DNA of 64,000 bases from a virus: positions 1-64,000 of IMG/VR virus record IMGVR_UViG_3300045125_000073; one strand, given 5' to 3'. Shown here one piece after another: positions 1,333 to 33,508 of the stretch. The position numbers and the translations under genes are program-made. Every line of letters starts with the position of its first letter. Position 1 is the stretch's first letter. The notes under the pieces are model-generated. The model had not been told where the DNA came from. It did no database searches and worked only from the letters and a program-made list of their open reading frames with translations.

Positions 1333-3979
1333 ATAAACTCTCCGTTATAAAAAATACAAGGATTAGCTGGTCCTTCAACGTTAGCAAAAGTGGTTCCCTG
1401 TGTTGCTGCTAGAGTAAAACCACCTTGTGGGCGTCGCAATCCGTCAACTGAAGCCTGACCTATGGGAGAACCGCTTGTGGGGGTCATCCACTTCATTCTA
1501 ACCCCTAAACGGCCTAGTAGCTGTTAAGCCTGCAGCACTAAATGTGATTGCTAACCAGTACTGACCGGGATTTACGGTAGTGTTTACTCCCTGTTACTCG
1601 TTGAGTGGTGAAAGATCCTGTGGATAATGTAGTTGCAGCACTTCCGTATAAACGATTTCTGGGATACCCGTAATCGTCAGAATCGTATAAACCTACCATG
1701 AACGATCCGGTATTTCCTCCACCACCACTGGCGTTTTGGTGTCCTATAGCTGTTATTCGTATTCTGTTTGCTATAAATATAGGAGCAAAATACGCATCAT
1801 TAGCTGTTGGAGACGTGCCTATTGGGGCGCTCATGTTTGCCCAACCTGTAGGAATTATATCGAATCCTGAAGTTAAACCACACCATTCTAGTCTGGTGTA
1901 GCCGCCTACAACTCCTTGAATAGCGTTTACTTTATTGGAAAAAGTAACACCACCGGACGCAGAAATACCAGCAGTTGCCCTCAATAGACTGGTGAATGTT
2001 GCTCCTGCTGCAGACACACCGGCACTAAAATTAGCCACAGAACTAAACGTGTTTACGCCTGTAAACGTTTGTGTGGTTGCTAGTCCTGCTAACGTTGTAT
2101 TGAATCCACCAGGTAATGTTACCGTTTGCGTTCCTGCAGCAGTTGATGGATATAAAAACGTTTCTGATCCGGATATATCGTCGTAAAAGTATATTTCATT
2201 TAAGCCATATGTGGTCAAATTCATTCCATTTGTAACAGTTTGGGATGATGTAAAATTGTTGTCCACATCAGTTCGAGCTATATTGGTGACGGCACCGGTG
2301 AAGCCGTTAACAGAAGACACTACATTCCCTGTAATATTTCCCAAAACAGAAAGAGTAGACCCTGCAGGAATTGTTGTGGTTCTTGACAGCGTGGCTCCTG
2401 CAGCACTAATGCCAGAATTAAAAGTTTGTACGGGGCCAAAAATATTTGCTACACTGGTAGTTACGCCAGTAACCGCTCCAGTTAGACCATTAAACGAAAG
2501 AACTCCGGTATTCACCAGAGTGATGCCCTTACCACCAGACAGGACACTCATACCTGTACCGCCGGATACAATCAGGACCCCGGTAAGACCGTTAACAGAA
2601 TTAACACCAGACACAGCACCGGTAGCTCCGTTAAACGAGTACACCAACGGTAAAGTGGAAACAGACTTGTTTTCCCATCCGGTAACTCCGTCCACGTAAG
2701 CTAGAACTTGAAAGTCTTGTGGTGATGTTATGATAACGTCTGTAAGATCGTCCAGTGTTAACGATACGGAACCACCACCACTGGTAGTGCTTCTAAAGCT
2801 GCCTGACTGTAAAATAAGGGCATCGCTTGAGTTAGACAGATTGGTTGTTCCTGCCCTTACAATCAGGTATCCTGCAAAGATTGCGTTTGTACGTGTGTTT
2901 TCAATTTCTGTAAACTGTTCCAGATTGATGTTGGCTGCAGCGTCCGCAAGGCTGTTGTACAATGCTCTACCGTAATACACTCCTAACAGTGTGGGAGTGT
3001 TGGGGTAGTAAAACAACCGTTGAATACTGTACTTTCCACCCGGAGCAGTTTGTAGTGTACCAGAACCGTTGTCGTAGTTTCCAGGATCTATAACGGTCTG
3101 ATTGGGAACTGTTATGAACGTGCCTGCAGTAGCTCCTCTGTAGTATCGATAAAAAATACAGTCTGTTTGTGCAGGGTCGGACACAACACTAGGATTGTCT
3201 GTGTCGTTAATCCAGTTTCTTCCCAGACTAAACGCTTTTCCTGAAGACCTGTTTAGTTTTAAGTTTGCTCCGTTAGGAATAATGGTGTGACCTGAAACTT
3301 TTATGGGGCCGAATGCACGTATAAACTGTTCGTACTGTTTGTCTGTGGCGTACGCAACGTTAGGATTGGTTCTGGCAAGATTGATGTACGCTCTGGACGG
3401 GTGGAGCAACTGACCGATAATTATGTTTTCTTCCAGTTGCTCGTCTGTGTAATACTCGGTTCTTTGGTGGAGTACTCCTGTCTCGTCAATGTAGATCCAT
3501 GTGGTATCGTGAGTTGCAAGATACGTTAAAGTTATACCTGTTTGACCAGGCCAAGTAACGTAATTAAACAGTGGAAACGGTCCTGATGTGAAACCTGAAC
3601 CTGAAGCGTGTATCTGTCCTTTTCCTCCAGTGATATCAAACTGTGCGGTATTACCTGCGTTTATAGACAGTATACCGCCGTACAGTAAACCTGTTGCCAG
3701 ATTTGACGCGTATATGTTTCCACTGATACCGTAAAGAGTGTCCGGAGAACTAATGGTAAAGGTACTACCTGTTAAGGTTATGTCTATAAGTTGTCCTGCA
3801 GATATACCAACAGAACCGGTTAATCCGTTAAATCTGGCAACACCTTCCACATTAGCGGTCAGGCCGTTAAACGTGAATACTTCGTATTTGTCCCATGCGG
3901 AACCGTTCCACCGCCAACGAATACTCTGGTACTCGTAGACCTGACCAATAGTTGGGCTGGACGGAAAGTTTATTGCCAT
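1329..3979 (-). CDS. Large repetitive tail-fibre protein
   Basis: About 880 residues. The N-terminus reads PSSPTIGQVYEYQSIRWRW, a start widespread in phage fibre proteins. The body carries repeated short units of the form [FV]NGLTGxVxGV, at least six copies, and GISAxGATF units typical of trimeric beta-structured fibres. The open frame reads to 1538, but the real C-terminus continues in other frames after indels near 1595 and 1505 (visible pieces NPGQYWLAITFSAAG and MKWMTPTSGSPIGQAS) to a TGA at 1329. The same NGLTG module occurs in the collagen-like fibre at 7566-8756. Probable role: receptor-binding distal fibre. Confidence 0.75.
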
Positions 3980-7570: not shown

Positions 7571-8736
7571 GAGCTATACTCATGGCTATCACAAAAGCTT
7601 TATCTACTGATCCTGCTGCCTGAGTGTTAGTAATTGTTAAATTTTTTCCGGATTGTGTCAGGGTTAGTTCCTGTACCGGCTACCAGATTTACGCTTCCAG
7701 TTATTCCGTTCACAGAATTTACCAGATTGGGAGCGTACACGTTGGTGCTGAATGTAGCACCAGCGAATCCCATTTGTAGAACCACAGTTTCATCCAAGAA
7801 ACCGTCTAAATCTCCGTCTGTATCTGTGGCAGCATTGAATGTGAATACTGGAGGCGGATCAACATCAGACGTTTCTGGTGTATCAAAAACTGCTGTGGTA
7901 ATTTTATTGCCGTTAATTGCATTTACGGAACCGTTTAGAGTTCCGCTAAATGATGTTGCTGTTACAGTACCACCGGTTTGGATACCTGTAGTTTTTATTC
8001 GTGTGCTGTACGTTGCTCCCGTTGCATCGTATAAACCTATCAGTACATCTGATGCTGCTGCAGTTGGATCCGTGGTATACGAAATGGTTAGAGGAACTTT
8101 GTTTTCTGTGTTGCCGCCTTCTACAGATTCTGTTGAAGGATTGTCCAGATACGTTTGTGTAGTGTTACAGGAACAGTAAAATTCTTTGATGGTAGTCCAG
8201 AATCTGCCAGATCTAATTTACCAAAAGTAACTGATCCTGTTGGTCCTGAAATGGGGCCGTTGAATGTGGCACCCGATGCAGAAATACCCGCAGCAAATCG
8301 TTGAATTGCTGTAAACGTGTTTGCTGCAGATGTGGTAACACCAGAAACTGCTCCCGTCAATCCGTTAAAGGATATTACGTAATCACCAACAGGTCCTGTT
8401 GGTCCGGTGTTTCCTTGAATACCCTGAATACCCTGAATACCTTGAATTCCCTGTTCGCCTGTCGGTCCAGTAGGTCCGGTGTTTCCTTGAATACCCTGAA
8501 TACCCTGAATACCCTGAATACCTTGAATTCCCTGTTCGCCTGTCGGTCCAGTAGGTCCGGTGTTTCCTTGAATACCCTGAATACCCTGAATACCTTGAAT
8601 TCCCTGTTCGCCTGTCGGTCCAGTAGGTCCTACAGATCCACCACCACCGCCTCCACCAATAATCTCTATGTCTACCTGTTTGCCTTTACGAGTAACAGTT
8701 ACTCCGGCACCTTTAAAGTTAAGATCGTTAACAGAT

Positions 8737-8756
<20 letters not shown>
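7566..8756 (-). CDS. Collagen-like tail-fibre protein with GIQ repeats
   Basis: About 397 residues. Residues 1-35 form a small beta head ([18 protein letters not shown]) and a poly-Gly hinge. Then comes a Gly-X-Y domain of three blocks of (GIQ)4-5 joined by [11 protein letters not shown], and after that an [11 protein letters not shown] unit and GISASGATF beta region as in the fibre at 1329-3979. The C-terminal part ([13 protein letters not shown], then [18 protein letters not shown]) is recovered across indels near 8165 and 7660. Gly-X-Y runs form collagen-type triple helices in phage fibres. The start overlaps the previous collagen gene. Role: extended fibre shaft. Confidence 0.75.
8386..8632 (-). 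repeat. Tandem 9-bp repeats encoding (Gly-Ile-Gln)n in three blocks
   Basis: On the minus strand near-identical 9-base GIQ codon units are repeated 4, 5 and 4 times within three long direct repeats of about 75-85 bases. Near-identity at the DNA level, and not only at the protein level, indicates recent expansion by slippage or recombination. Copy number may vary between phage particles. Confidence 0.85.
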
Positions 8757-11723: not shown

Positions 11724-13709
11724 TTATCCCATAGTGCTTAATGAAAATGTAAACGGACCACCTGCAAGTCGGTTTCGTATAAACACATCACCACCGTTCA
11801 ACACAATATTTAATTTTCCATCTGTGCTGGTAGCCAGTGTTGTATCTGTTTGAAACACAATATCAGAACCCTCAAATACTTTTTGATGAGAACCGGGGCC
11901 ACTTGTTCTATTTTGAACGTACATCATAGAAGCGTTATTTCCAGAAGTAGATGTGAGTAATCTGAATTTACTTCCGTTAGAGTCCCCTCTTCTGGAAACT
12001 TGTACCAAGGATCATCTTTACTTAGGGTAACACTTTGTGTTGCGATTACTCCACCAGCACCGGTGCTATCCGAATCAGCAATCATGCCTATTCGGGGTAT
12101 CAAAGAGGTGGTTGTATTTCTAAAAGTTTCTGCAGTTATACCTATATTTACATTGTTCATACCAGAAACTTTAGCAGGATATGTGTCCATTCCATTATCT
12201 GTAAATGAACTTATAAAGATGTTGTACCTTTTACCTTTTGCATTTATATTGTTGTTTATTATAAAATTATTTTGCGAAAATGTAGATCCATCGGCGCTAT
12301 ACAAGAACGCACACGTTAAACCGTTTATATCGGATATCTCTTCAATCATATTATCTGTGATTGAATAGTATGTATTACTATCGTCTCCGGCTTCTTTTCT
12401 GTAAGTAGAGGCCGAACCAAAAACCTTAACAGGGCCTCCAATTATTTTGTTTCCTTTTACGGTAACAAATAGTGGATTGGTTCCTACTGCAGAAAAACTT
12501 CTACCCATTTGAAAAAATGTGTTTAAAACTGCTCCAGCAGTTTTGGGAACTGTTAATAAAAAAACTGAATTATCTGTGACTGTAGCGTATCTTGATTCGT
12601 GTTTTTTATTGTAGAATAAGGACTTATGCAAGACGAACCTCCGGTTATAGAAGATCCTCCTTCATGGGTAAAAGGACTGGCACCGCTAGTGGTTGGATCG
12701 TAGACGAAAACGTTGTTAGATACTATTCCACCAGAAATCTGACAGTTTATATCACTAAATCCTCCCCAGATTGATGGTATATTTCTATAACACACATTAT
12801 TAGTAATAACTGCTGAATCCATCTGTATTTTAATGCTTCTTCCTTTACAATTTCTGAAATGATTATTGGTTACTGTGGCTGAGGACTCTCCATATGTGAC
12901 TCCTTCTCTTGTCCATACACCAAACACAGCAAGACCGTCTGCATCCACATCTTTTCTGAAGCCCCCGAGTCTTCTGATGTGATTGTGTCGAAATAACATC
13001 CAGAAACATTTACGTGTTTGTGCCATGTTGGAGCTTGTTTTTGTTCCGGATCTAATAATAGCCAATCCATTAGATCCTGCTACAGTCGGTACTGCTACAC
13101 CAGCTTTTCTGCTAATATTCTTAAAAACAGAATTAGTTACGTTTGTGAATTTTGTGCCACCACTGATCATTAATCCCCGACTTCCAGTAACTCCAGGAAT
13201 TTGGCCTGCATCACATGTGTTAAAGAGCCACACCTGTCCACTTCTACTGTGGAAGTAAAAAAGAAGTAGCTTCTTCTAAACGAACGCAAGAATTTGCTTT
13301 ATTGTCTCCGTTAAATTGCAGTCCTTCCATTTTTATATCTTTTACCGTCAAGCACAATATGGAACATTTGCGCACAGGTTCTACCTGATATTATTGTAGC
13401 ATTATCTCCTTTAATGTTTGTGGAAGCTGTAAGTATTTTTACTATCTGCCTTCCAAGATTATCGATGGGAGATCCTGTTACTCCTAATCTGTATATTCCG
13501 TTTGGAAAATATAATACTTTGCCCATTGCGGCCGTAAATGCGGCACTTATTCCTGTAGTATCGTCTGCTATACCATCTCCTTTGGCACCGTAATCTTTAA
13601 CAGAGATTAAATCTCCATTAATATTATTGATTCTGCCAACTATTTCGTTGGTTTTATTATACCAATCTTGAAATGTATTTGTTCCGGTTAATAATTTAAT
13701 ATTGTCCAT
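11724..13709 (-). CDS. Tailspike 2, right-handed beta-helix (pectate-lyase fold)
   Basis: About 660 residues, a paralogue of the tailspike immediately downstream. The N-terminal anchor LLTGTNTFQDWYNKTNEI is a common attachment sequence in marine T4-like fibres. It is followed by a textbook Pectate_lyase_3 entry (VKDYGAKGDGIADDT then KVLYFPNGIYRL). The beta-helix rungs [14 protein letters not shown] and VCYRNIPS match the paralogue closely, as does the cap TDGKLNIVLNGGDVFI. Frame breaks lie near 13300, 13240, 12600 and 12000. Likely a receptor-binding depolymerase or adhesin. Confidence 0.78.
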
Positions 13710-13730: not shown

Positions 13731-16700
13731 TTAACAAGACCAAGTTGTATTAGGCGCAGTAAATCCGCTACGAGCAGCTAGAATTGTAAAATCATCGATC
13801 ATTATTCTACCTAAAGATATACCAGAAAGTTTTGATATTTGAATATCCCATGATGGAAATCTGTTTGTTGGAGCTGTAAATATAGAAGAACATCCTGTGT
13901 TTACAGGTAGAAGTTATGCTGTTAAGAGTGTATGCTCCATAATTTCTAATTTGAGGAGTTTCTGTTGGTATAACAATAGCTTGGTTTTGTCTGAATACTG
14001 TGGAGTTTATCTGAGTTATTAGATTAACTTTAGTCTCATCGTGTACTGCGCCTCCACTAAGACCTAATCGTATGTCTAGTGCATAACTTTTTGTTTGTTG
14101 ATTGAAATCTGAACTATTAACAGAATTTTTGTGCTTCTAGTTCCAACCAATAGTTTAGATACTTGTATTGGTTGTGTGGATGTGAATGTCATAGTTACTC
14201 CAACATAATCACAGGTGTAACCACCGTCTATAAAATTTTGTCCTATGGGGCCAGTCCATCCCACATTCCATACTCTATTATTTGTATCAGAAATGGGTAA
14301 AATTGTTATACCCGGATCTGTTCCAGAAGTTGCTCCAGTATAACCAATCAAGAATCTATAATAAATTCTATCTGTAGGACCACTGGCTCCAGAACATATA
14401 CCACTTATTCCTGCAAAATCTGTTATTCGTATGGTTGAAGATACTTTATTGTACGGTTCATACGCTCAACTTTATTCCTCTTGTTACTTTACCTATCTGA
14501 TACTGATAAAATACTGAAGGACTAGTTCTATAATCTGCCTCTGGATTGTATTCATAGCCCCAAGAGGAGAACCTATTCCATTTTGAACCAGAGTAAAATT
14601 ACCAGAGGAAGCTGTTAAAGACCTTATGTTATAAGAATTAGTAAGATCCATAAACAAAGATCCACCAGTATTACCAAAAGATACTCCAGTTATAATTGCT
14701 GGTCTTGGGAAACTTGGTTTTTTATATTCGCCCAACTGCATTCTATTATGGCCTGCAGCATATTTTTCTTCAAAAAAACTGTTCTAGCTAGTACTACCAT
14801 CGTTTCGTATTTCTCCTGCTTCTAACAGTATTACAGCATCGCCCATATAGGCAGACAAGTGGCCTTCGTCTCGATGTGCTTTAGCATCAAATCGACCAGC
14901 ACCTTTACCCCATATACCAAAATAAACGGTTTACTAGTCAACGTTAACTGTTTATTAGTTTCTGGATCATATCCTTGATTCGGATCAGTGCTCTGTTGAT
15001 CTGGCATGACGAAATCAGTGTCCCAGGTAAATGTTTGATCGTCTGGGAAATAATTTCCTCGGTAGTAGGATCTGTACGGCTTAACTCCAGGAGTTTCTGG
15101 CGTATTTTTTAAGTTCATAAAAAAATAATTATTCATTCCTTTAAAGCTGCCACCCCAATACCTTTTATAAATTCCTAAACTCTCAGCTAAAAGCAGAACC
15201 GGGCGCGCCTCTTTCCGGATATTCTGAACCCAAAACTGCACCATGATATAAATCAATTCCTGCAATACTATAAACGTTTCCAGCACTATATTGATCACCA
15301 TTAACACTACCACAATTTATAATTAAATTGTTAGGCATGATACGACTGTGAAACCATCGCCACGCATTGTTTATCCAATGAGAATACGAAACACCGGCTC
15401 CGCGTTTTGTTACATTGTGTCCCAAAAGCCTTCTGTCTCCCATATTTTTCTATGTCTTGGAAGCAAATATAAAACTTCAGGCATTGCTACTACCGCATAA
15501 GCCCATCCCTCGGGCCATACTCCTGCTCTTTCTATTGAAGGATCAGAATCTAAAACACGCTCAAAGAATCCAGCTAAAATTTCTGTTAGGTGTATTATAA
15601 CATTCTGATAGCTGTCTTTTCTAAATTTGTTTCTGCATGCTCGTATAAGTACATTGCTGTTTTTATTACTACAACACAATTGCTCTAACCATTGATTAGA
15701 TGTAATCATCCCAAGATTATCTAAATCCCCTGCAGTATGTACACATCGTATTCAAGACGTGACCAATTTGCGTACCAAGGTCGTTTTTCCCATGTTTGCT
15801 TAACGTGAGAATACAACTCTTTAGTTAATAACATTCTAACATCTTTAATTAATTGGTCCCAGGATGGATCGTCTCTGTAGACGTTGGCCACCAGAAATCT
15901 TCTGGTGGACGATCAGACGTGGCTCCCGTCAACAAATATAATACATCCGTTAATGCGTCTCGACCAACGTGGTCATATATTGATTCTCCTGATCTGCTGT
16001 CCACCCTTGTGGAGACCGGCGTTTACGTTTACGCCCAATCCCAGATCAAAATCTACTGTTGCTCCTATAGGACCAGAAGAATTCTAATACCTCCGGATCT
16101 ACCACCATGGGTTACAGGATCATTGGTCCAAGAAAAGGTTATATTTTTATCCACGCTGTTAAGTGGTCTGGTTATAGGATAGTGAGATTTTAATTCTGTT
16201 AATATTATTTTTATTTTTTCTAAAATATCTTGATTAAATATTCTTGTTTGTACCTGTTTTATATAAACCAGGATTTGCTGTTCTATCTGCTATAACAGAA
16301 TTGTTGTGTTGTAGTAAAAATCTCCAAGCTATAGCAATGTCAACCAGTTGTCTGTATATTCCATTATATGTTGTATGTAAAAGATCAACTTGACCTAGAT
16401 TATACAGTACTTATTTCTAGAATTAGCCCATACTATGGTATTCGCAGCATCCCAATCAGATACACCAGATTTCCAATCCGATGAGGTTTAGAGTTTAAAT
16501 CATTAAACGAGTAGTGTCGTACGTATCGATTAGCTGTCCCGCCTCTTAGTGTGATTCTTTTGTTCCGTCTAAAGCTACCCACCATGCAGCAGGATCGTAT
16601 TTTTGTATTAATTGCTCTACAACACTATTTACTGCATTTCCTGGAGCCCCTTTAATGCCGTAATAATAAGACGTTTCGTGATAATTATTAAACATATTTG

Positions 16701-19700
16701 GCCCATAGTTACTGAAATATTTTTGCCAAATATAGCAGTTAATCCTTCAATTACTTCTTTCTTTATGTTTGTGGGTCTGTATTTTATATCTCCAGTCCAT
16801 GGAGTCAATCTTTTGAGGAGCAGGAACAAAAGTTCCAATTTACCTTTTTCTCTATAATTATCTTTTGTTCCTTGTGTATACTGTAAAACTTCAGAGGTAC
16901 TCCTTCAACGAATCCAGTGTCAGTATTACCGTAGTTGCTGTCTCCCAAGTTAAAAGAAGATTTTATTGCATAAGTGTATCCGACTCCAACAGATGCTGTA
17001 GTATCAAAAAACTCGTTATTTGTCACAGTTCCTAGTAAAGTAATTCCAGTTTCTGTATCAAAATTCAAACCAGTAAATACTTTGTATGAACTTGCTAAAG
17101 GCAATTTGTATTCCACTAATTCTAACTTTATCAGAAAACCACCTTTGATGTGCTTACACCTTTGGATGGGGATTAACATTTCTCCACCTCTTCAACTGGT
17201 CCGGTTTTATTTGTTTCATAAACTAAATCTGGCAATGCAGCAGACACATAATAGTCTTTTGTGGATCCTTGTGGTATGGTAGTGTCTGCAAAAAATGTAA
17301 ATCCAGTTGTTCCTCATTTTATTTGTTTTAGAACCAGAGTATATTCTATACTCCTGTGCGCCTGTTACTTTATTCCAAGATAATAAAATTTTATCTGAAT
17401 ATGTTCCATTAGATGCAGTCAGCCCCTACTGGAGCTTCTAATCCAACAAAACCCAAAACAATATTACTAAACGTGCTGTCTATAGACGCATCACTAAAAG
17501 CGGTAACAGCATATTGGAATGTTATTCCTGGATTTAGACCGGCATCGGTATCTATAAAATTAGTAGAATTAGCTGTTGTTAATCCCGATAAAGGATTGCC
17601 TCTATAAATTTTATAGTTTACGGTTCCTTGTGGTGCATTCCAGGACAGAACAATTCTGTCGCTAAAGGTCCCTTGTGATGCAACAAGACTAGACGGAGCA
17701 GCTATTCCTTTCCAACCAAAATCACCGATACTTCTAGGGCCCTCTCCTGCTAAATTAAAAGCAGAAACTTTATATTCAAAAGTTTGTCCAGGAAATCCAG
17801 AAACATCATCTAAAAATGTATTTGTAGTATTTTGAACCGTTTCGACACCTAAAGAATTTGTTTTATAAACACTGTAACCACTAATTCCCATTATGGTTAT
17901 TGGAGGAGTCCATGTAACTAAAACTTTATCTACAAAAGAACCATTTGATGCTAATATTCCTGATGGAGGCGTTTCTGGAGCTAATTGAATCACTGAACCC
18001 ATGGCAATAGGGCTGTATTGCACTATCTCCTAGAGTACATGATGCTTTTACTGCGTATTTACGCGTTTGACCGTATACAGCATTGATGTCTGTGAAAGAA
18101 AAATTAGAAGTTACTCCTAAAAGTTGAGCGGTTGTATCTGGATCTAAATATACTTTATAACCAGTAGCTCCACTCACCGGAGACCACGATAAATTTATCC
18201 TATCAGATAAATTATTAGATGCGGTTAAAATACTAGGAGCTGTTAATTTCATCCACCCAGTATTACCTTGACTTTGAGATCCTATTCCTGCAGAGTTTCT
18301 GGAAGCTACTGTATAATTTATTAATTGCCCCGGAGAAGGAGTATGGTCTATAGTTTCGTTTGTGGTTGCTCCAATTTGAGTTCCGTCTGCAAATACAATA
18401 TAACCACTTATTCCTGATACACTATTCCATGTAATATTAACTTTATTAGTAAATGCGCCATCGGAAGCGGATACTCCTGTTGGAGGATTTGGTAAAGAAA
18501 CAGGAAATCCCGTAGAACCTATATCGATGGGAGAAAAATCACTATCTCTAAAGAACAAGACGCTTTTACAGCATAAGCAAAAGTAGTGCCTATTGGAAGA
18601 CCGGAGTCAATGAATTGTGTTTCTGTACTTATTGTTCTTGCTAAAAAAGATAAACTGGTGGGCGTTCCTTTAAATATTTTATAAAAATTTGCTCCCTGTG
18701 AAGTAGACCAATTTAATGTAATTTGTTGAATAGCTGCTTGTTTAGATGCATTTAAGCTAGAAGGCGGCAAAATATTTACCCAACCAGTGTTTCCAGCACT
18801 TTGGTCCATCTCCTGCATTATTAAATGCTTTAACTTTATACTCAAAACAAATACCAGCAGGAGGAGTGTCTATAAAACTAGTGTTCTGTGTAACGCCTAA
18901 TAAATTATTGTTTTTAAATATTTTATAACCACTAATACCCTGTATACTTGTTGCCGTGTTCCAATTTATTATTATTTTATCAGTAAATATACCATCAGAT
19001 GCGGACACTCCGGTTGGAAAATTTTCTGGTGGTAATTGGGCAATAAACCCTGTATCTTGTGAACTAAAATCACTTTCGCTTAAATTGCTTACTGCCTTTA
19101 CCTTATATGTTATTATTTCACCGTATGTTACACCAACATCATCATAACTAATACCACTAATAGTTTGGTATTCTGTTGGTGATGTTCCTTTGTAGATTTT
19201 ATAAGAAGATGCACCATCTGAACTGTTCCAGTTTAAGCGAATCTTGTTTGTATATAAACCATCTGATGCTACAAAATTAGATGGTGGATTTAATTTTAAC
19301 CAACCAGAATTAGAAAAAGTTATCGGGCCTTCTCCACTTGAATTTACGGCTCCAATTCCATAAGTGTAAGAAACGCCTTGAATTGCTGTTGTATCTATAA
19401 ATTCGGTATCTAATATATTGGTTGCTATTCTGTTTGTTGAAGTGTCTCTATAAATATTATAATAAAATATAGAATTTACCGGAGTCCAATTTACTCTAAT
19501 AAAATTAGTAAATTCTCCAAATGAAGCTGTAACTCCTGTGGGAGCTTCTGGTGTTGTTGGTTGAATTAAAACACTTTGAATGTTACTAAAGTCACTGTCG
19601 CCAAGAGCACAAGAAGCTTTAATTTTATAATTATATGCAACTCCTTCTTTTATATTTTTATCGCTAAAAAATACAGAACTAGTTGCACCATATAAAGAAA

Positions 19701-20231
19701 ATTGATCTATTGCTGGAGCAGTCGCTTTATATATTTTATATCCTGTTGCTCCTTCTACAGATAACCAGTTGATTAGTATTTCTGGAGGAGACGTTTGTAT
19801 TATAGAGGATATTATTGGTTCTGATAATTTTTCTCCAACCAGAGAGTGTTACCGGTTTGCTTCTATACTCCAGACCGTCTAAATAAACAAAAGTTTTTAC
19901 CGAATAATTTGCTAATTTACCGGGTTGTTGTATATTATCTTGAAAAAAAGTATTTGTGGTTGTAGCTATTTCTTGTGTATTATTTTTAAAAATTTTATAA
20001 CCATCAACACCAGAAACTGCATCCCAAGATAAAGACACATTATCTTTAAAAGATCCGTTAGAAACAGTGAGACCAGAAACTAATAAATCAGTTTCTAAAA
20101 AATTACCAAAAGTTTCTAATATAAAAAATGTATTATTTTTTATTATTTTAATTGAAGTAATAACACCCAGTCGGGCTTGTTTGGTCTCCAACAATTGCTA
20201 CCAGATCTGGTACCAATAATTTTAATTTCAT
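13731..20231 (-). CDS. Giant Fn3-repeat tail protein with lyase-like C-terminus
   Basis: About 2,170 codons starting at ATG 20231 behind GGAGGAGAT. After a short N-terminal region come about twelve fibronectin type III-like repeats spaced about 267 bases apart (roughly 89 residues). Each shows the pattern DGxFTDKIxLxW...GxxGYKIYK, for example VSLSWDAVSGVDGYKIFK and INLSWSPVSGATGYKVYL. From about 16850 the protein changes character: an alpha-helical, Trp-rich part (ERAGVWPEGWAYAVVAMPEV, SHWINNAWRWFHSRIMP) precedes a beta-rich part with KAHRDEGHLSAYMGDAVILL. That order resembles heparinase II/III-type lyases. Dozens of indels interrupt it. The lyase assignment is tentative; the Fn3 assignment is firm. 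Probable role: long side fibre that degrades surface polysaccharide. Confidence 0.7.
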
Positions 20232-20547: not shown

Positions 20548-20955
20548 TTATTCAGGTTTTACATCCAATCTTCCTCCCAACAAAACTTCAGAATAAGAAG
20601 TACCAAATTCTAAACGTAAACTATAAAATTGTTTGCCAACCGGTAAAGAATTTGTGGTTTCTTTATCTAATTCTATCAGGATACCACCAGTTATACCAGA
20701 ACCCGTATAGTTTGTATTTAACTGTATTCCACCAGAAGAAGCGAGTATTCCTTGTGAATTTGGACCGGTATAACCGTATCTTGCTTCTCCCAAACTAGCT
20801 TTTGCTAGAGGATAATCTGAATTTTTATATCTTTCAACTTTAAATTCTGCTGTATACGAAGATAAGTCTACAGGCGTATTATCGTCTTGTAAAAACTGAA
20901 CCCATGTAGTAAAAGTGGAATTTTTGTTTAAATTTAGGTCGTATTGAGCTGACAT
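20548..20955 (-). CDS. BppU-like virion structural protein
   Basis: Intact, 135 residues. The opening MSAQYDLNLNKNSTFTTW, then DDNTPVDLSSYTAEFKV and the ending GGRLDVKPE, follow the pattern of the N-terminal immunoglobulin-like domain of phage baseplate upper proteins (BppU_N-like), which often stand alone in marine T4-like phages. It would sit on the tail or baseplate and connect fibres. This is a pattern-based assignment without an alignment. Confidence 0.6.
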   Translation of the reverse strand: MSAQYDLNLNKNSTFTTWVQFLQDDNTPVDLSSYTAEFKVERYKNSDYPLAKASLGEARYGYTGPNSQGILASSGGIQLNTNYTGSGITGGILIELDKETTNSLPVGKQFYSLRLEFGTSYSEVLLGGRLDVKPE

Positions 20956-20971
20956 ATACAGTATATATTAA

Positions 20972-22218
20972 TTATCGGCTGACAGGTTTTCGCTCCTTAA
21001 ACTTCTTTTTGGGTAAATGGGCGGGGAAAAGTGGCTGGTTTATGGTCTTTTTTTCGCTCTGTTTTTGAGCTTGTTCGTCCATTTGTTTTACCATTTCCAT
21101 CTGGTTGGTTTGTTCAAAACATCTAATATATTCGTTTAAATTATTTTGTACTCTAGCAACTTCATTTTCCGGCAGACGATTTTCTAACAGGAGTTTTTTG
21201 CATGCAGAATAACCCATATGGGGCTTGCCTGCATAAAATGCTGTAGATCCTATTTCATCCAAAATTCCGTATTTGTATACATCTTCAGAACACGAATAAA
21301 ATATCGTCTTGGGGATACGGAAGATCTGCTGCCATTTTTGCGTATAGGAATCCTAGACGAGGATGGCCCATAAGTCTATAAACTCTGGCAATTTGGTGTA
21401 GAGGCTCGGCCCTGAATGGACGAATTTCCCAGGCTTCTAAAAATGCTTGTTGTATTTCAATCCACGGCTTATTTTGTAAACCACGGCACATTCCTATACG
21501 GTAAGCGGCGTAGAATTGTTCTTCTTCCCAACCACCCATTTCTACACGCTTTTTATACGCTTCTTCTGCTTTATCCCATTGTTGGGAATCAAAATAACTC
21601 TGGGCAAGATAGAACTGATAACGAATATTATCGGGTTCTTTCTTTAGTGCTTCTTCTAGAACTTCTGCATCCTTTTTGTATTTTTCTACAGGAGTTATAT
21701 CTTTGTTACGAGCACCCAAGGTACGAGCAACAACTGCGTAATCTCTTTCTAATTTTTCCAATATTTGGTTGTCTGTTGTCTATAGTTGGGTATTCGTGTA
21801 GTACTCCAAGATACTTCCAGTCTCTTCCAGTTCTAAAAATCTGTGTTCTCCACCAAACAAAGTCTTGTCTACGGAACTTTAAAGCGAATCCGTCCACTTC
21901 TTGTGGTACATTTATTGGAAACTCAAACTTTCCTTCCACAAAGTCATCGGCATCAATCATCCATGCCCACTCAGCTTTTCCATCACATAACTGTAAAGCT
22001 TCGGTTCTATTATGGCCGAATCCTTCCCAAGGACGTTCATGTAGTTCTCCGGGTATGCCTTTTTCTGCAAAATAATTTCGTATTAGATCTTGAGTTCCGT
22101 CTGTTGAACCGGTATCAACAATAACCCAATAATCAATATATGGGTGAATAGAATCTAAGCACTCTTTGATAATGTGAGTTTCATTCTTAACGATCATTGA
22201 TAAGCATAATTTATGCAT
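20972..22218 (-). CDS. GT2 glycosyltransferase with C-terminal TPR domain
   Basis: About 415 residues in three open pieces, with frame breaks near 21755 and 21280. Residues 1-160 are a family 2 glycosyltransferase: MHKLCLSMIVKNE, the nucleotide-binding VDTGSTDGTQDLI, and MIDADD as the DxD metal site. Residues 180-350 carry tetratricopeptide-like helices (NIRYQFYLAQSYFDSQQWDKA). This GT2-TPR architecture is widespread in bacterial and phage surface-glycan loci. It is the last gene of the island and overlaps the epimerase gene by eight bases. Confidence 0.85.
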
Positions 22219-23002
22219 TAATTAAATCTCCGTTGCAAAGCATTTTGTATACATTATATATGCCTGATTGTAAACCTATTGTTTTTATAGGCATATAATG
22301 CGACTCTCCACAATAAAACTCTAACTTGTTTTTGTTGTCTATAATAATAGGAACTCTATATGAATCCAATTCATTAATAAAATCAGCAATATTTGTGAGG
22401 GTAAATTTTTGTTTATACGAACAATTAATAGTTTTATGTAGAGACTCTTCTTGAATATAATAATCTACCAACTCTATTAAATCTTTCATATAAAAGAAGT
22501 CCATGATTTTGTCTGTATGAACAACTATTGGCTCTTTATTAATGTATCTACGAATATTAGCTTTAATAAATCTAGTGTTTAATTCGTTTTCATCAAATGT
22601 TGCAAAAACACGAAGATTATAAAATCCTGAGTTTTTGCTATAGAATGGGCTATTAGTTATTTTACTCGCACCATAGTAACTGTCTGGGGCAAATATTTCT
22701 GCTCCGGAACCAAATGATATAAATTTTTTAAACTGGTGTTTATTCGCGTACAAATTATTGTACATAGCTATATTATCTTGAACTACTTTAGGAGTTTCTG
22801 GAACTAAGCGATTACCGCCAGTTATAGCTGTGTGGATAACAACGTCATATTCTCGTTCGTGAAACCATTCACATGTTTGATAATAATTGGTTAAATCAAA
22901 ATTACTGCGGGTTACAGTTGTTATCTGATATTTAGTTTTTAGTTGATTGTAAATACTTTTAGCAATATAACCATTACCACCCGTTATTAACACACTTTTC
23001 AT
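22211..23002 (-). CDS. NAD-dependent sugar epimerase/reductase (extended SDR)
   Basis: Intact, 263 residues. An N-terminal Rossmann motif (LITGGNGYIAKSIYNQL) and the active-site YGASK (Tyr-x-x-x-Lys) place it in the extended SDR family acting on nucleotide sugars. It is immediately downstream of the thiamine-diphosphate enzyme. In yersiniose-type pathways a reductase follows such a carboligase, so this could be the C-branch ketone reductase. That role is inference from order, and 4-epimerase or 4-reductase activity is equally possible. Confidence 0.8.
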   Translation of the reverse strand: MKSVLITGGNGYIAKSIYNQLKTKYQITTVTRSNFDLTNYYQTCEWFHEREYDVVIHTAITGGNRLVPETPKVVQDNIAMYNNLYANKHQFKKFISFGSGAEIFAPDSYYGASKITNSPFYSKNSGFYNLRVFATFDENELNTRFIKANIRRYINKEPIVVHTDKIMDFFYMKDLIELVDYYIQEESLHKTINCSYKQKFTLTNIADFINELDSYRVPIIIDNKNKLEFYCGESHYMPIKTIGLQSGIYNVYKMLCNGDLINA

Positions 23003-23048
23003 AAATTAAATACATCCGATATAAACATATCTGTTAGATCGCCTGGAA

Positions 23049-24736
23049 TTATTCTTCCTCAGAATCTATACCTTTATGTACAACTTTTTGGTTCATGTTT
23101 TTCGTATGGGTGTGTAAATAATTCACAAATAACAGGTCCCTTGTGTGTCATTATTTTTGGTAAAATTTTATCATATTGGTCATTAGTTTTAACACAAAAA
23201 TATTTAATTCCATATGCTTTGCTTATGGCTTTAAGGCTGGGGAAGCTAACCCCACTATCTTTTCCTGATGCTACTTCCTTTCCACCAAAGAAAGATTCTT
23301 GTGTTATTTTAATCGATAAATACCCATCATTGTTAATAACAAATATTTTCATTGGTAGTTGGTGATGAACTACAGTTTGCAATTCTTGTATATTCATTTG
23401 TAGACTTCCGTCACCTTCGATACATATTAATTCTTTATTGTCTACAAAACTAGCTCCTATAGCCGCAGGCAAACCATAACCCATACTAGCACAACCAACA
23501 TTTGTAAATAGTCTTTTGGTTTTCTTTTAATTTTAATCCTTGTAGTGTTACTACGTGTGCAGAACCATCACTGGTTATCACAGGAAGATTATCGCAATAA
23601 TTTTTTAATCTATCTATAAAATAATAGCTGCTGGCAAAAGTTTTCATATTAATATGTTTGTCATAAACATACTTTTGAGTATTTCTTAACTCAAGAATAT
23701 ATTGTCTCCATTCTTCTATATTAGCATATTTCATTACAGGAATAGAATTTAAAAAATTCTCCTATATCTGACACTATTTTAAGATCTATTTTAAATTTAT
23801 GTTTATCTATTTCGTTTTCGTCTATATCAATGTAAATTTTTTAGAATTAGGAGAAAATCCCGGTATATTATACCCAGTCATTTTAACATTCAATCTAGAT
23901 CCTAATATTATTAATAGATCTGCTTCTTGAACTATTTTATTTGAAGTTAATTGACCTAATATTCCTATTCTACCAGCATAATATTGATACGTATTGTCTA
24001 CACAATCTATACCAGAATGTACGCCTGTTAAAACAGGTATACCTGTTTGTTTTAATAACTTATCAAAGATTTCGTAACTTTTTGATAAACGAATTCCATT
24101 ACCAACAAGAAATACAGGCTCTTTTGCTTGCTTGATAAGTTCTAAAAAATTATTAATTTGTTCTATTGAAACATTCTTTTGTGGTTTTTGTTTACATCAT
24201 ATTGTTTTAACTCGGATAGCTTTACTATTGCTCCCTGAATATCCAAAGGTATATCAATCCATACAGGTCCTGGTCTACCAGTTGTAGCTATATCGTAAGC
24301 TTTATTCAGTTCATATAATATATCATTTTTATCTTTAATCATAACAGCATACTTTGTCATTGTTTTTGCTGTTGATATAATATTAAATTCTTGATCACCT
24401 ATTTGTCTACAACCAGTGCCCTCGGATGTTTGTGATAATGATACTTGACCGATATAAAAATAATAGGAACGCTATCCAACCAAGCACCCAAAACCCCCGT
24501 GAGAGTGTTTGTTCCTCCTGGTCCTGTTGTTACAACACAAGCACCAACGTCTTGTTTTAATCTTAGCATAACCTTCAGCAGCCATTGCTGCTGCTTGTTC
24601 GTAGAGAAATATACTTTAGTGTTTTTGCTTTTCCTAATGAATCTCATCAAGTGAATACAACCACCACCAGAAACAGTAAAAACATGATTTATATTTTTGA
24701 TTCCAAAAACTCTACTACAATATCAGATACTTTCAT
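23049..24736 (-). CDS. Thiamine-diphosphate enzyme, acetolactate-synthase-like
   Basis: About 560 residues once frames are joined; the start MKVSDIVVEFLESKNINHVF overlaps the HAD gene. The N-terminal domain keeps the catalytic Glu region NEQAAAMAAEGYAKI and GACVVTTGPGGTNTLTG. The middle has GRPGPVWIDIPLDIQGA. The C-terminal domain has the ThDP-binding GDGSLQMNIQELQT...NNDGY motif. Breaks lie near 24600, 24450, 24165, 23850, 23735, 23485 and 23085. In a sugar locus such enzymes can add a two-carbon unit from pyruvate to a keto-sugar (YerE type) rather than make acetolactate. That substrate is inference. Confidence 0.85.
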
Positions 24737-25120
24737 GGGTAAACTTTTTTAAATCACTTAGTGCTTGATTCCAATTTTGGAATTGAATTGCTTTATCATC
24801 AATATAACAAATACATCTAGGTTTTTCTGCTGTTATATCTTTTATGTATTCATTTAATTCATACTTTTTAACCATTCCCATATCAATTCTGGTCCTGTTT
24901 TTCCGTTTATAAGTGGTCTATCTTTCTTTGCTTTAGCTGTGTAGATTACTATATGATACTTTTTTGAAAGTTTTTTTATCGCGTCAATAGAACCCTCAAT
25001 AGGACTTCCATATATTGTCCCATCGTGATAACCTAACTCAAAACTATGGATAACTCCATCAAAATCTATAGCTATAGTTTTTGCTTCTTCTTCTTCAATT
25101 TTTTTCTTGTATTCATTCAT
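24723..25120 (-). CDS. HAD-superfamily phosphatase
   Basis: About 130 residues with one indel near 24870. Motif I is IAIDFDGVIH (Asp nucleophile), motif II VIYTAK, and motif IV is CICYIDDKAIQF. It is a compact, capless HAD hydrolase. In glycan loci such phosphatases dephosphorylate a sugar or 2-keto-sugar phosphate. Both ends overlap neighbours (ThDP enzyme downstream, aldolase upstream), so it is part of a tightly coupled set, perhaps acting on the product of the aldolase. Confidence 0.8.
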
Positions 25121-25914
25121 GGTTTATGGATTGATTTATTCTATCTTGAATCATTTGGATGCGTTTAATATCTTGAGACGCAAGAGTAGTATAATATTCG
25201 TGTTTACACTTAAGCCATTCATATTCAAACATTTGGCCTTTTGAAAGGGCTCTTGGTAGATTTTTTAAAGCAACTGATGGATCGTATATTGCATAACGTG
25301 TTTCAAATTTATCAAGTAAACCTTCAGAGTGAAGTTTCTTTAAGAAAGAAAGAGAATCTGTAGAAACAGCTCCACCCAAACACAATTTTAATCCTTTTTC
25401 TTTAACTTTAACAAATACTTTACGCACTAATGAATATATCTCATCGCTATTGACATATGTTCTATCTTTCTCCATAGAAGAAACCAGATCTACTCGACCA
25501 ACAGTAACTCCATATAAACTGTCAACTTCAACTATGTTCAGCATCTTTTCGATGTTGTTTACTGCGGTTATTGTTTCTACATTTATATTTAAGTGTATAG
25601 AACTTAAAGAATCATTTGGAATATGTGTTTTGGCTGATTGGATAAACTTTTAAGACCAAATTCAGACTCTACCATAGGAGCCACTAATCCCTTGACTCCT
25701 ATGATCAAAGAATCTTTATAATATCTCTAATCGCCTCTGGACCACCTATTTTAAGTGTCAGTTTAGTTTTAGCTTGATTACAAATTTCTTTTAGGCGAAC
25801 AGTTTCATTAAATAATGCTCCCTCATCTTCAAAAGAAGTTTTAATACCAATAAGACCTTCATTTTCAATGAGATCAGTTAAAATTTTAACGCATTTAAAT
25901 TCTCTGGTGTTCAT
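25113..25914 (-). CDS. HpcH/HpaI-type aldolase or citrate-lyase-like enzyme
   Basis: About 267 residues in two pieces; single A losses near 25705 and 25640 break it. The core GVKGLVAPMVESEFGLKKF carries the E in the MVES-E motif of the PEP/pyruvate-binding aldolase family. KLTLKIGGPEA at the front and VDSLYGVTVGRVDLVSSM behind complete the TIM-barrel signature, with the GRVDL Asp a metal-ligand candidate. Family members join or split pyruvate and an aldehyde. Its pairing with a HAD phosphatase and a ThDP enzyme suggests a dedicated carbon-chain-building step; the substrate is unknown. Confidence 0.7.
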
Positions 25915-25917
25915 GGT

Positions 25918-26582
25918 TTATTTTTTTGTTATTATTGCTGTAGCATATGCATTTTGAACATCGACATAGATTTCTATGCCAGATATATTATTTTCTAAGT
26001 ACTCTTTTCATCGAGGCAACAGGTGCTCGGATTCTATTTTACCTGTTTCTTTAAGTTTGTATATTAAATTATAAGTCTCATCGTTTCTAATACAACAAAC
26101 TGGCTGATTTGGAATCGACATATCTTCTAAAATATAATAACCACCAGATTTAACATATTTAAAAAGCTGGCCCAAAGATATGATTTGATGGTGATGTTCA
26201 TGTGAACCGTCTTCTAATATAAAATCAAATTGTGTATTACCAAATGTTTTATACATATTTTGTAAATCTATTCTATTACCTTGGTCGCCTTGAAAGAATT
26301 TTATCCTTTCATTGTTTTTTATAACAGGATGAGTTGACATATCTTTGATATCAAACGTGTAAATATACGCTGCATCAAAGTAATCTTTCCACATATTTAC
26401 AGACTGACCACCATCAGAATATTCCATTTTTATTCCAATTTCTAACATTCGAATGGGTTCTTTCTCCATTTTGTTAAAAGTACATCATAAATTGGAGCAT
26501 ATCCGTGACGAGATGCGTTTGGAAATTCAGTTCCTTTATCCGTACCGTATAAATTTGCTAATTGATCTAATGTTTGTTTCAT
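25918..26582 (-). CDS. Class I SAM-dependent methyltransferase
   Basis: About 222 residues; the inferred start MKQTLDQLANLYGTDKGTEF joins the main piece after one missing A near 26470. RMLEIGIKMEYSDGG is the SAM-binding motif I, and FDFILEDGSHEHHHQI is a motif typical of cephalosporin-hydroxylase-like and sugar O-methyltransferases. The C-terminus is recovered near 26005. It probably methylates a sugar hydroxyl or a glycan end. It lies between the dehydratase and the aldolase genes with gaps of under ten bases. Confidence 0.75.
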
Positions 26583-26589
26583 TGTTATT

Positions 26590-27537
26590 TTACCATATAA
26601 AATTATTTTTATAATACTCTACTACATCCCTTAAAGCCATCTTAAAGTTTATTTCGGGATTCCATCCTAATCTTTTAAGTTTATCATCATTCAAAGAATA
26701 TCGCAAATCTTGTCCAACTCTAGAACAAGACATATCAACATAATCATTTACATCAAAAGTATCAGTATTTTTTATGATTGATATAATGTCTTTAACGGTT
26801 TGTATATTTGATTGTTCAAAGTCACCAGAAATGTTGTATATCTCATTTTTAACACCACTCTCAATAATTTTTATTATTGCATTCGCGGTGTCTTGTGCGT
26901 GTAACCGTTCTAATTGAGTTCCATTGTTGTGTAGGGGTATTTTTCTATTTAGATTAAAATACTTACATACTTTTGGAATTAATTTTTCTGTGTATTGACC
27001 AATTCCGTAGTTGTTTGTGGGTCTAACAATAACGTATGGAACTTTATGAGTTCGTGCCCATGCTAGTATTAACATGTCTGCTGCAGCTTTAGTTGCTGCA
27101 TATGGGTTTGATGGTTTTAATATATCGGCTTCAGTGTGAGCACCTTCAACAATGTCACCATAAACTTCGTCTGTACTAAAATGTAATAGAGTAGGTACTG
27201 CTGTATTTTTGTCTATAGTTTTTTATTAACTTTAAAATATTATGAACACCGTTTATATTGGAATAAATAAAATCATCACTATTAGCTATGGAATTACCTA
27301 CATGAGTTTCAGCAGCCGTATTGATAATATAATCGCAATCATATAAAAATTTAAGGTCATTTATATCACAATGAACAAATGAAAATTTTCGTATTGATTA
27401 AATTCTTTTAATAAATCGTCATTTGCTGCGTATGTTATTTTATCTACACCTTTTACATACCAGCCTTTTTTTAAACAAAGTCGTGTTATATAAGAGCCTA
27501 TAAATCCTAAACACCCTGTTACATATACTATTTTCAT
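26590..27537 (-). CDS. NDP-glucose 4,6-dehydratase-like SDR enzyme
   Basis: About 316 residues in three pieces (breaks near 27380 and 27225). N-terminal Rossmann motif TGCLGFIGSYI, then NTAAETHVGNSIANS, the signature FSTDEVYGD of RmlB-type dehydratases, and the catalytic YAATK. The C-terminal half (VRPTNNYGIGQYTEKLIPK, DLRYSLNDDKLKRLGW) is intact and typical of dTDP-glucose 4,6-dehydratase. It would make a 4-keto-6-deoxy sugar nucleotide. Whether it uses dTDP-, CDP- or UDP-sugar cannot be told here. Confidence 0.85.
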
Positions 27538-27538
27538 T

Positions 27539-28270
27539 TTATCTGCTCCAAAAAGTTGGTTCTCCTATAATTCTGGGTGCACAGTATTTATTTCTCAGAA
27601 GTTTGTGTTTGTATTTTATTATCAAGTTGTAATATTGTTTTAGTGCACATTCGTAGATATATGCATGAAAATTATCAGTATAATTATACCAATAATCGTC
27701 TATTGCATTGTAAAAATTTGTTTTAGTTTCTAGCTGTTCTTCTGATCCAGCAGTCCATATATCAAAAATATACGGATATTTCCCGTCGTATGCTGTTTTG
27801 GGTATCAATAAATTTGATGAATTTAATTCATTTATATCTAATTTAGAAAGATAATTTATATCTAATCTAGTAGAAAAATACTTATCATATTTTTCATATT
27901 GTCTGGCCATTTCAAAAGCCTTTAAACTACTTTCTAACATATTTTTTACACCCAAATGAGAATTTGGTATATGTTTATTGTATCTTGACTTTAAATAGTC
28001 TGTTCCCCTATCTGTTTCCACTATTATGTGTTTTGGATTATATGATTTTTTAATCCCTTCAAAATCTATAGTTTTTGAAGACTTTTCTTCAAGGACCCCT
28101 TGTGTTTGATCTTCCCATCCATTCCAGTGTGAACCGCTTTTAGCATTAATTCTATCCCAGGTGTGTATAAAAATATCACCCGGAGCAACAGAATAAACAT
28201 TATCAAAAAAATTTTGATAACATTGTTCCCATGTTCTGGAATGGCCGTGAAAGATATAGGCTATTTTCAT
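27539..28270 (-). CDS. Unknown island protein, glycosyltransferase candidate
   Basis: Intact, 243 residues (MKIAYIFHGHSRTWEQCYQN). It contains DIFIHTWDRINAKSG, FSTRLDINYLSK and IGEPTFWSR. The short beta-rich start, scattered Asp residues and its place between two sugar-modifying genes suggest a glycosyltransferase, but I see no clear DxD site or family. It is neatly packed, one base from the dehydratase gene. Clean reading of 732 bases shows that not all genes here are error-hit. Confidence 0.6.
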   Translation of the reverse strand: MKIAYIFHGHSRTWEQCYQNFFDNVYSVAPGDIFIHTWDRINAKSGSHWNGWEDQTQGVLEEKSSKTIDFEGIKKSYNPKHIIVETDRGTDYLKSRYNKHIPNSHLGVKNMLESSLKAFEMARQYEKYDKYFSTRLDINYLSKLDINELNSSNLLIPKTAYDGKYPYIFDIWTAGSEEQLETKTNFYNAIDDYWYNYTDNFHAYIYECALKQYYNLIIKYKHKLLRNKYCAPRIIGEPTFWSR

Positions 28271-29140
28271 TAAGTATTCTCATAATATCACTATTTTTAT
28301 AAAAGTCAACTAATTTATGTATAATAGTTTCAACAGAAAATTTATTTGTATAACCATAAGACTTAACTTTTTTATATCCAAATAAGAATGTCTAACCTGG
28401 ACTATATTGTGAAATTGTGTTGGTTGGATGTCTATTATCTTAGAACTAGAGCCCGAATAATCTATGGCCTTTTGTATGAGATCTCCAAACATGAACGGCT
28501 CACCACTGCCTATATTAATGATCTCATTTACTGGAGCATGATCTATACAGTGTTTTATTGCAGTACATACATCATCAACGTAAATATAATCTCTTAAAAC
28601 TTTACCACCATAATAAAGTTCTACATCTTTATTTTCAGTTATTTGTTTTATAAGATATTGTAGAGCATTTTTCTTTTTAGAGATTTTTAGATCACCTTCT
28701 CCCAATACATTAGCTAGTCTAAAAATTCTATATTTTATATTGAATGTTTGGCAAAAAGATATCAGTAATTGCTCTGCACAATATTTGGTTATAGAATAAA
28801 ATCCTGTAGGATTGCATTTAGAATAGTCTTCTCTAAATGGAATTTCATTATTTTGGCCGTACACAAACCAAGAGCTAACAAAATTAAAAACTATATCTTC
28901 ATTTTTAGGAATGTTTTCTAAAACATTCATTAGCACTTTTAAATTGGTGTCTATGTCTATATGTAAATTTTGATGGATATTATAATTATCAACTGTACTT
29001 ATTAAGTACAAAATATTATTAGTTTTTGGTTTATAATCTGTTTTATCTAACTTTATTATTTGGTCGGAGTATAAATTACAAAATTTAGATCCTATAAATC
29101 CAGAACCACCAAACACTGATATTTTATCAATATTGCTCAT
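28270..29140 (-). CDS. NAD-dependent epimerase/dehydratase (extended SDR)
   Basis: About 290 residues. Rossmann motif SVFGGSGFIGSKFCNL, substrate-binding SSWFVYGQNNEIPF, catalytic YSITK (Tyr-x-x-x-Lys), and RDYIYVDDVCTAI in the C-terminal domain. An indel near 28385 shifts the last 40 residues, and the intended stop is probably the TAA that overlaps the next ATG (TAATG). Likely a nucleotide-sugar 4-epimerase or reductase, the second of three SDR enzymes in the island. Confidence 0.8.
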
Positions 29141-29977
29141 ATTTTATCCCATGGTGCTTAAACCAGTTATTTACATCTAGTAAATGATACTTATAATCTT
29201 GTTTTAATTTATTATATTCCAATTCTAATAGTTCGTAGCTTATGATGGACCAATCATCAATTAAAATCATAGGAAAATTTTTAGCATAATATGTATTCAT
29301 CGCAGATGTTTCTACTACAGGAATCGCACCAAAATATAAAGATTCCCACACTCGATGTGTGTCTTTTCCGTTTCCTGGAGGACATATTATAAATTTATGA
29401 GTCTGTAAAGCTTTATAGTAATCACCAACATCATTATAAACCGTTTTAGTATTTAATCGGTCTGATATTATTTGTTTTATTTTTGTTCTCTTCTTCTGGA
29501 TTTGTTTCTATATTAAAATTAGAATAAAACAAATCCATCTCTATTATCTGTTATAGTAAATTGTTTTAGATGTTCGGTTTCAGATGCTTCAGATCTCCAA
29601 GGAGGAACTAAACCAATAGGCAACGGTGTCATTATCTCGTCTATTGTTTCTGCATTTTGTGCATACCATTTTTTTATATTTTTAGGTACTGGTGGTATAT
29701 AACTAAATTTATTGTATCCACCATGAGTAGAGACCGAATGATCATTGTCCCCTGATATTAAAATTATATCTGTTACATCAGAATTATTTAAATAATTAAA
29801 AAGGTTAGGAAGATATGTACTCCAGCAGTATATGGTACAACCATTAAAAATGTCTTTTCTTTTATTTGATTTTATATACGGAACACCATCATTACGAACA
29901 AAAACAACATCACATCTGTCAGCATAATTTCTAGCGTTTAGTGTTGTTTGTGGTATTGTTTTTACATGAGTAAACAT
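29127..29977 (-). CDS. Exostosin-like glycosyltransferase
   Basis: About 283 residues in two pieces, with indels between 29355 and 29520. The join region reads IICPPGNGKDTHR then VWESLYFGAIPVVE, the C-terminal exostosin-family pattern (CPxGxGxDTHRxWEaLxxGxIPVV). The N-terminal part has LISGDNDHSVSTHGGYN. Family members transfer sugars in cell-surface or capsule polymers. The start follows the stop of the DUF5672 gene directly. Confidence 0.75.
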
Positions 29978-30648
29978 TTATACAGATTCTAACAGTTTTA
30001 ATTTATCTTGAAATTGTTGATAAAAACCATCATGATCGCACATATTTTTTGATCTCCTCTACCATGAAATCCAAAACAATTATTTAAGTCAAAATCACAT
30101 TCTGGTATTCTAGATTCTAATGAAAATCTCATAGCAACTTCAACAGGAGCAAATTTACAACCGTGCTGTTCTAGGGCATTTTTATAACGAAGACATATTG
30201 TTCCGTCTTCATGCCCCTGTGAATCCATATAACGACAAAGATTAATTAATTTTTTACTTCTTAAACTGAACCCACCATTACCTACACGATTAATTTGACC
30301 ATAATTTTTCCATGGCGCACCGATATAATCGTATTCTAAAAATCCATCATCCCATAAATGAGGATTTATAACAAATCCATCATCGTGAATAGTAAGACAA
30401 TACTCTGTGTCAACGTACTTATACAGTTCGTGTAACATAAATTGACTATAGGTATCGTGTGTTAGTTTTGGTATTTCTTGATAAATTATATCATCCGGCA
30501 CATTAACTGGTTTGATGTGTGATAATAGCATATTTTTTGCAAAATCTATATGCTTAGTACTATATTTTATAGCTTTTAATCCTATATCAGGATTTACACC
30601 ATCAATACAAATTAAAGTTATATTTTTTAATTGTATCTTATTGCTCAT
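29978..30648 (-). CDS. DUF5672-type glycosyltransferase
   Basis: About 222 residues. The motifs EYCLTIHDDGFVINP, YDYIGAPW and RVGNGGFSLRSKK are those of the DUF5672 family of predicted glycosyltransferases, and CFGFHGRGDQ follows. One missing A near 30045 shifts the last 20 codons; in the right frame the protein ends KLKLLESV followed by TAA and the next ATG. Its sugar donor is unknown. Confidence 0.8.
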
Positions 30649-30663
30649 AGATATTTACCAAAA

Positions 30664-32669: not shown

Positions 32670-32670
32670 A

Positions 32671-33504: not shown

Positions 33505-33508
33505 AATA

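Follow-up and report, generated by a model that had tools for sequence, protein, structure and literature searches.

Does the long tail-fibre-type gene of this phage end in an enzyme that would cut acidic polysaccharide? The question comes from a preliminary description of the window (the whole stretch of 64,000 nucleotides analysed here, part of an 88,811-base IMG/VR record), which saw in positions 13731-20231 a giant tail protein joining twelve Fn3 repeats to a heparinase-like lyase region. The phage of the window is marine-type and T4-like, with a gp55/gp47 region closest to methylophage Melnitz, pelagiphages, and cyanophages. The boundaries given for the gene proved exact; no strand had been named, and the gene lies on the minus strand, starting with an ATG at 20231 that is preceded by the Shine-Dalgarno sequence AAGGAGG and ending with a stop at 13731-13733 (Table 1).

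The stop-to-stop fragments imply about 25 frame changes across this gene. The whole contig is error-rich, with frameshifts throughout and few long ORFs, and because they occur contig-wide (gp55/gp47 being an example), those of the fibre gene are most likely sequencing errors. A pseudogene was rejected as an explanation of the broken frame, since frameshifts also break housekeeping genes of the window. The late sigma factor gp55 and gp47 are read as a single ORF at 43351-44259 on the minus strand, a sign of such errors. The fragments of the fibre gene were joined by hand solely for searching; the joined sequence stands behind the library and protein searches with the window head and, in part, behind the motif and hhalign comparisons, while the key head motifs all lie in literally translated fragments. 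Moreover, a profile of the head from four intact relatives matched the raw, unmodified window in five segments (E = 7.5e-61, 9.8e-19, 3.3e-9, 1.9e-8, and 1.3e-6), and the homology of the window gene, which is far beyond chance, is therefore independent of the joining.

It is very improbable, in our view, that the locus holds no working gene, its frame being decayed or misassembled, or that its product is a secreted enzyme and no tail protein. The frame changes of the window copy would fit the former, and the tail location is itself a prediction, but intact orthologues are present on four other IMG/VR contigs (1,677 aa at a contig end, 2,038, 2,043, and 2,524 aa), and the gene sits, in the window and in its relatives, within a tail fibre and spike cluster comprising a pectate-lyase-like spike and a collagen-like fibre. 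From this neighbourhood we infer that the fibre protein is probably carried in the virion.

Table 1. Features of the fibre gene and its neighbours (window positions; L-numbers are related virus contigs).
Feature	Position	Strand	Basis or remark
Whole stalk-plus-head tail-fibre-type gene, ~2,150 aa if read through	13731..20231	minus	Frameshifted fragments; orthologues in L084, L086, L093, and L082 in the same gene order
N-terminal piece, MKLK(I/L) start common to relatives	20151..20231	minus	Weak beyond the first residues
Stalk, twelve Fn3 repeats	16904..20080	minus	Pfam fn3 in three fragments; HMM from L082 repeats; DNA repeats
Lyase-like head module, ~1,000 aa	14079..16800	minus	Profile of four intact relatives; hhalign to heparinase II/III
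GMITSNQ, candidate charge-stabilising Asn position (Asn238 in PL33)	15692..15712	minus	Alignment, register uncertain by 1-2 residues
PEGWAYAVVAMPE, EGxxY motif with candidate catalytic Tyr (Tyr291 in PL33)	15476..15514	minus	Alignment
SRIMPNNLIINCGS, matches FNFADS segment of heparinase-like proteins	15306..15347	minus	Alignment
KAHRDEGHLSAYMGDAVILLEAGE, metal-site-like motif, Lys at the expected catalytic His	14811..14882	minus	Alignment
AAGHNRMQLGE, HN motif, last metal-ligand position	14727..14759	minus	Alignment
Conserved C-terminal cap (FPSWD...GISLG...), kept when the head is exchanged	13734..13913	minus	42-55% identity among L082, L084, L086, L087, and the window
Conserved small gene upstream, 135 aa, possible fibre-assembly/attachment protein	20548..20955	minus	Same place in relatives
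Next gene, pectate-lyase-like beta-helix tail spike, frameshifted	12553..13709	minus	PF12708, E 4.9e-10 for 13311-13709

In the stalk, Pfam fn3 (PF00041) exceeded its curated cut-off in three separate open fragments (E 8.6e-10, 6.5e-6, and 1.9e-10). With an Fn3 HMM derived from the repeats of an intact relative, exactly 12 repeats were counted, two of them split by frameshifts, in agreement with the number first proposed. Their spacing is about 250-280 bases with a mean of about 265, in line with the period near 267 bases estimated earlier, and the general layout of a long Fn3 stalk followed by a C-terminal enzyme-like module was likewise seen correctly. The DNA repeats of the stalk (16900-20100) also show a super-period of about 530 bases, corresponding to two domains. 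Adjacent Fn3 repeats alternate in type, the DNA repeat returning every second domain.

Relatives of the gene were found in two stages. Related virus contigs came first, through the aminotransferase next to it, and in one of them the corresponding slot contains an ORF of 2,993 aa that matches the window gene at about 49% over its final ~80 residues; the C-terminal cap then led to L084, L086, and L087, and the head to L090 and L093. Further scans added no member of the head family beyond those already found. Scans of viral sequences with window fragments, for which poor patterns had been chosen, retrieved no relatives, a DNA-level search of phage records with the fibre gene gave no match, and the head protein found no relative among phages, plasmids, and genome_contigs.

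The slot shared by the relatives is flanked on one side by a glycosyltransferase/TPR gene and a gene of ~140 aa, and on the other by a pectate-lyase-like spike or a collagen-like fibre gene, and what fills it varies considerably. The proteins of L084 and L086 consist of Fn3, TIG, the lyase-like head, a second domain, and the cap. In L082, Fn3 is followed by a beta-helix (PF13229, E 5.9e-9; weakly GH141_M, 0.0047), RCC1 repeats, another domain, and the cap. L093 (1909-9480) has about ten IPT/TIG repeats and no Fn3, followed by the lyase-like head and another domain, without this cap, and L087 (9854-10246) encodes a 130-aa protein that consists solely of the cap and an N-terminal piece of MKVKI type, with neither stalk nor head. 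Because same-slot relatives differ in this way, the comparison demonstrates, at the level of sequence, that the stalk (Fn3 or TIG) and the head (lyase-like or GH141-like beta-helix) are swapped while the ends are largely retained, and this points to an exchangeable tool for processing sugars. In L084 (8615-10279) and in L093 (7993-9480) the head is followed by an extra domain of ~500 aa; the two domains differ, and neither has a Pfam match.

As for the head, the sequence KAHRDEGHLSAYMGDAVILL quoted in the preliminary description is literally present at 14882-14823, and the Trp-rich, mostly helical-looking sequence described ahead of it was also seen. Neither the stitched window head nor any of the intact relatives matched a Pfam family, even when E-values up to 1-5 were allowed, and PF07940 was absent from the contig in a Pfam scan. 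The head matched nothing in PHROGs or among PDB sequences, and a profile search of the PDB retrieved short chance matches to glucosidases and nothing else. AlphaFold models of the whole head and of its beta part had pLDDT values of 27 and 28, respectively; from such a shallow alignment they were uninformative, with most helices towards the start and the strands after them.

The head family was compared by hhalign with a profile that combined seven heparinase II/III proteins, taken from plasmid records, with three sequences of solved structures in the form printed by HMMER. The head core aligned to this bacterial profile with a score of 33.2 (E 0.0013, probability 18%), above 150 column shuffles (at most 25.4) and the reversed profile (12.9). 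L093 alone scored 35.0 (E 5e-4), where 220 unrelated phage ORFs reached at most 24.4, and single head members scored between 20 and 35. Overall, the E-values of 0.0005-0.002 come with scores above all shuffles and background ORFs, yet with a probability of only 15-30%. The alignment pairs, in collinear order, SNQN with NNW, EGWGY with EGxxY, NFGS with NFADS, K-x-(N/H)-x-D-x-G-H with H-x-H-x-D-x-G, (E/D)-x-G with D-x-G, and GHN with HN; the D, E/D, and HN motifs are collinear in all members, with small slips in single-sequence alignments. The head is thus likely to be distantly related to the heparinase II/III superfamily, as far as sequence comparison can tell. The kinship proposed at the outset is supported in part, by the collinear profile alignment and by particular residues (the EGxxY Tyr, D-x-G, E/D-x-G, and HN), at no better than an hhalign E near 1e-3 and the low probability just given.

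These same results bear on the alternative that the head has a new fold of no relation to these lyases, helical at first and then beta, perhaps that of some other hydrolase, whose likeness to heparinase II/III would be a chance convergence of short motifs. The lack of a library match, the low hhalign probability, and the low-pLDDT models are all compatible with this alternative, which we nevertheless regard as unlikely: the score exceeds all shuffles and the 220 background ORFs, the register is the same in five proteins, and both the order and the spacing of the motifs are right.

The residues of the putative active site can be judged against the families PL33 and PL35. The conserved residues in the active site of PL33 are Asn238, Tyr291, His444, and Tyr470 (PMC11848413). 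For the PL35 GAGase II, the catalytic residues are Asn192, Tyr246, and His401, and the metal is enclosed by His403, Asp405, Asp421, and His457 (PMC12088678). The EGxxY Tyr is kept in all five head members (EGWGY or EGWAY), although in some single-sequence alignments the match is shifted here by a few residues; residue 291 in the PDB sequences printed is this Tyr, and one deposited variant (8r70-8r72) has Ala. The candidate Asn column, whose register is certain to ±1-2 residues, holds Gln in the window and Asn in the relatives (SNQW versus (S/T)NQN). At the position of the catalytic His (His444 of PL33, His401 of PL35, His406 of PL21), the motif alignment places Lys in 5/5 members, and the second Tyr (Tyr470 of PL33) is missing from all of them. 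Of the catalytic His and Tyr on which the preliminary description had made its reading depend, the Tyr is present and the His is replaced, a mixed result. In the metal site, the Asp and the last His are kept, the second Asp is Glu or Asp, and the first His, encoded at 14874-14876, occurs only in the window, being Asn in 4/4 relatives. The distance from D to E/D is 16 in the head, as between Asp405 and Asp421 of the PL35 GAGase II. The His of the HxD strand, a candidate for the catalytic His, was rejected, as it sits at a metal-site position and is Asn in the four relatives. The D-x-G-H motif (14859-14870 in the window; also L084, L086, L090, and L093) ends in an invariant His, at a position occupied by Ser or Thr in the lyases used for comparison, and this residue could substitute for the missing catalytic His.

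Since the catalytic His is Lys throughout and the His first picked lies at a metal-site position, the cutting of acidic polysaccharide put forward in the preliminary description is best taken as a prediction. Phage fibres often bind without cutting, and the head might be a degenerate lyase that has kept the fold and the metal-site loop and serves on its stalk as a polysaccharide-binding lectin. The Lys at the His444 position, the loss of Tyr at the Tyr470 position in 5/5 members, and the Asn replacing a metal His in four of them would agree with such a loss of activity. Nevertheless, the putative acid/base Tyr and the candidate Asn are retained, few stretches of the head family are better conserved than the catalytic loop, and the PL33 His has been proposed only to activate the Tyr (PMC11848413), so that we find a non-cutting head somewhat doubtful.

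The explanation that we prefer, with moderate confidence, is a modular virion fibre or spike in which an Fn3 stalk carries a very divergent heparinase II/III-type head that would bind and split acidic polysaccharide. Besides the evidence from the head itself, the beta-helix and RCC1 repeats that occupy this slot in L082, and the pectate-lyase-like spike encoded next door, speak for it. The short N-terminal piece would attach the protein, the twelve Fn3 domains would form the stalk, the ~1,000-aa head would combine an alpha-toroid with a beta-sheet part as a far-diverged member of the heparinase II/III (alginate/GAG lyase) superfamily, and the ~80-aa conserved cap would form the C-terminal end. 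The head would most likely bind the acidic (uronic-acid) surface polysaccharide of the host and split it by beta-elimination, with the EGxxY Tyr as acid/base, the Asn stabilising the carboxylate, and the metal site holding the active-site loop; the Lys, or the invariant neighbouring His of D-x-G-H, may stand in for the usual His. More tentatively, the head family may represent a virus-only new polysaccharide-lyase family, a toroid lyase with Lys or a neighbouring His in place of the catalytic His, carried on a fibre with exchangeable payload, in which T4-like phages would exchange entire enzyme heads while the N-terminal piece and the C-terminal cap both stay constant.

Toroid lyases form an established class of enzymes, and phage depolymerases are overwhelmingly beta-helices. 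Beta-helix tailspike lyases such as LKA1 gp49, the K5 lyases, and HylP would have in common with this protein a virion-type polysaccharide depolymerase on a tail protein, but the head shows no beta-helix match. The next gene of the window is of that ordinary kind; for the fibre gene itself, an ordinary beta-helix spike was rejected. The heparinases and alginate lyases of PL12, PL15, PL17, PL21, and PL39, likened to the head by description only, would share the proposed superfamily fold and acidic substrates. Also among the closest known systems are the PL33/PL35 GAG lyases (8r6z-8r75, 8khv, 9o3q; PMC11848413, PMC12088678) and Pfam Hepar_II_III_C, which the head resembles in the helical-then-beta order (by sequence likeness), the EGxxY Tyr, the order (H/N)-x-D-x-G ... 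(D/E)-x-G ... HN, and the 16-residue D to D/E spacing. In contrast to them, the head has Lys for the catalytic His, lacks the second Tyr, is much larger (~1,070-1,110 aa), stands on a phage stalk, and gives no significant library match; in L084 the head covers residues 415-1487 of an ORF of 2,043 aa.

The alpha/alpha-toroid fold has been reported in phage proteins by DepoScope, in silico only, in 11 of 984 depolymerase-fold hits (~1%) and without further description (PMC11326577). A "new type of T4-like side fibre" is nevertheless a fair term for the architecture. The head family would share with the DepoScope proteins a toroid-type carbohydrate-degrading fold in phage; the search of public phage records gave no match to it. 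The literature searched, of incomplete coverage, yielded no heparinase-like lyase in a phage tail. What appears to be new, relative to the libraries searched, is a sequence family on an exchangeable stalk-and-head fibre. If the reading is true, a toroid-lyase family on a long Fn3/TIG stalk would bring into phage host recognition a class of enzymes that has been little studied, and could provide new tools against the acidic polysaccharides of aquatic bacteria or algae. Moreover, fixed ends with a swapped payload (lyase-like, GH141-like, or none) would make host-range evolution by whole-domain exchange directly testable.

The surroundings of the gene display further features. A relative of the small upstream gene weakly matches phrog_3304, 'L-shaped tail fiber protein assembly' (E 0.0065), for LtfC the E-value is 0.043, and an orthologue of the spike comes after the stalk gene in L082 and L085-L087. 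Near the fibre genes lies a glycan-building island (22211-35201, minus strand) with NAD epimerases, a DegT-type aminotransferase, a TPP enzyme, a methyltransferase, and glycosyltransferases; the aminotransferase has more than 200 relatives in viral contigs, the best being 74-95% identical. An 813-aa tail-fibre-like protein is encoded at 1538-3979 (minus strand), whose residues ~95-390 resemble Streptomyces and Stenotrophomonas phage tailspikes (27-32% identity), a likeness that is odd for a T4-like phage. Finally, collagen-like repeats are found at 8121-8756 (minus strand), comparable to the collagen-like fibre gene located downstream of the spike in the relatives.
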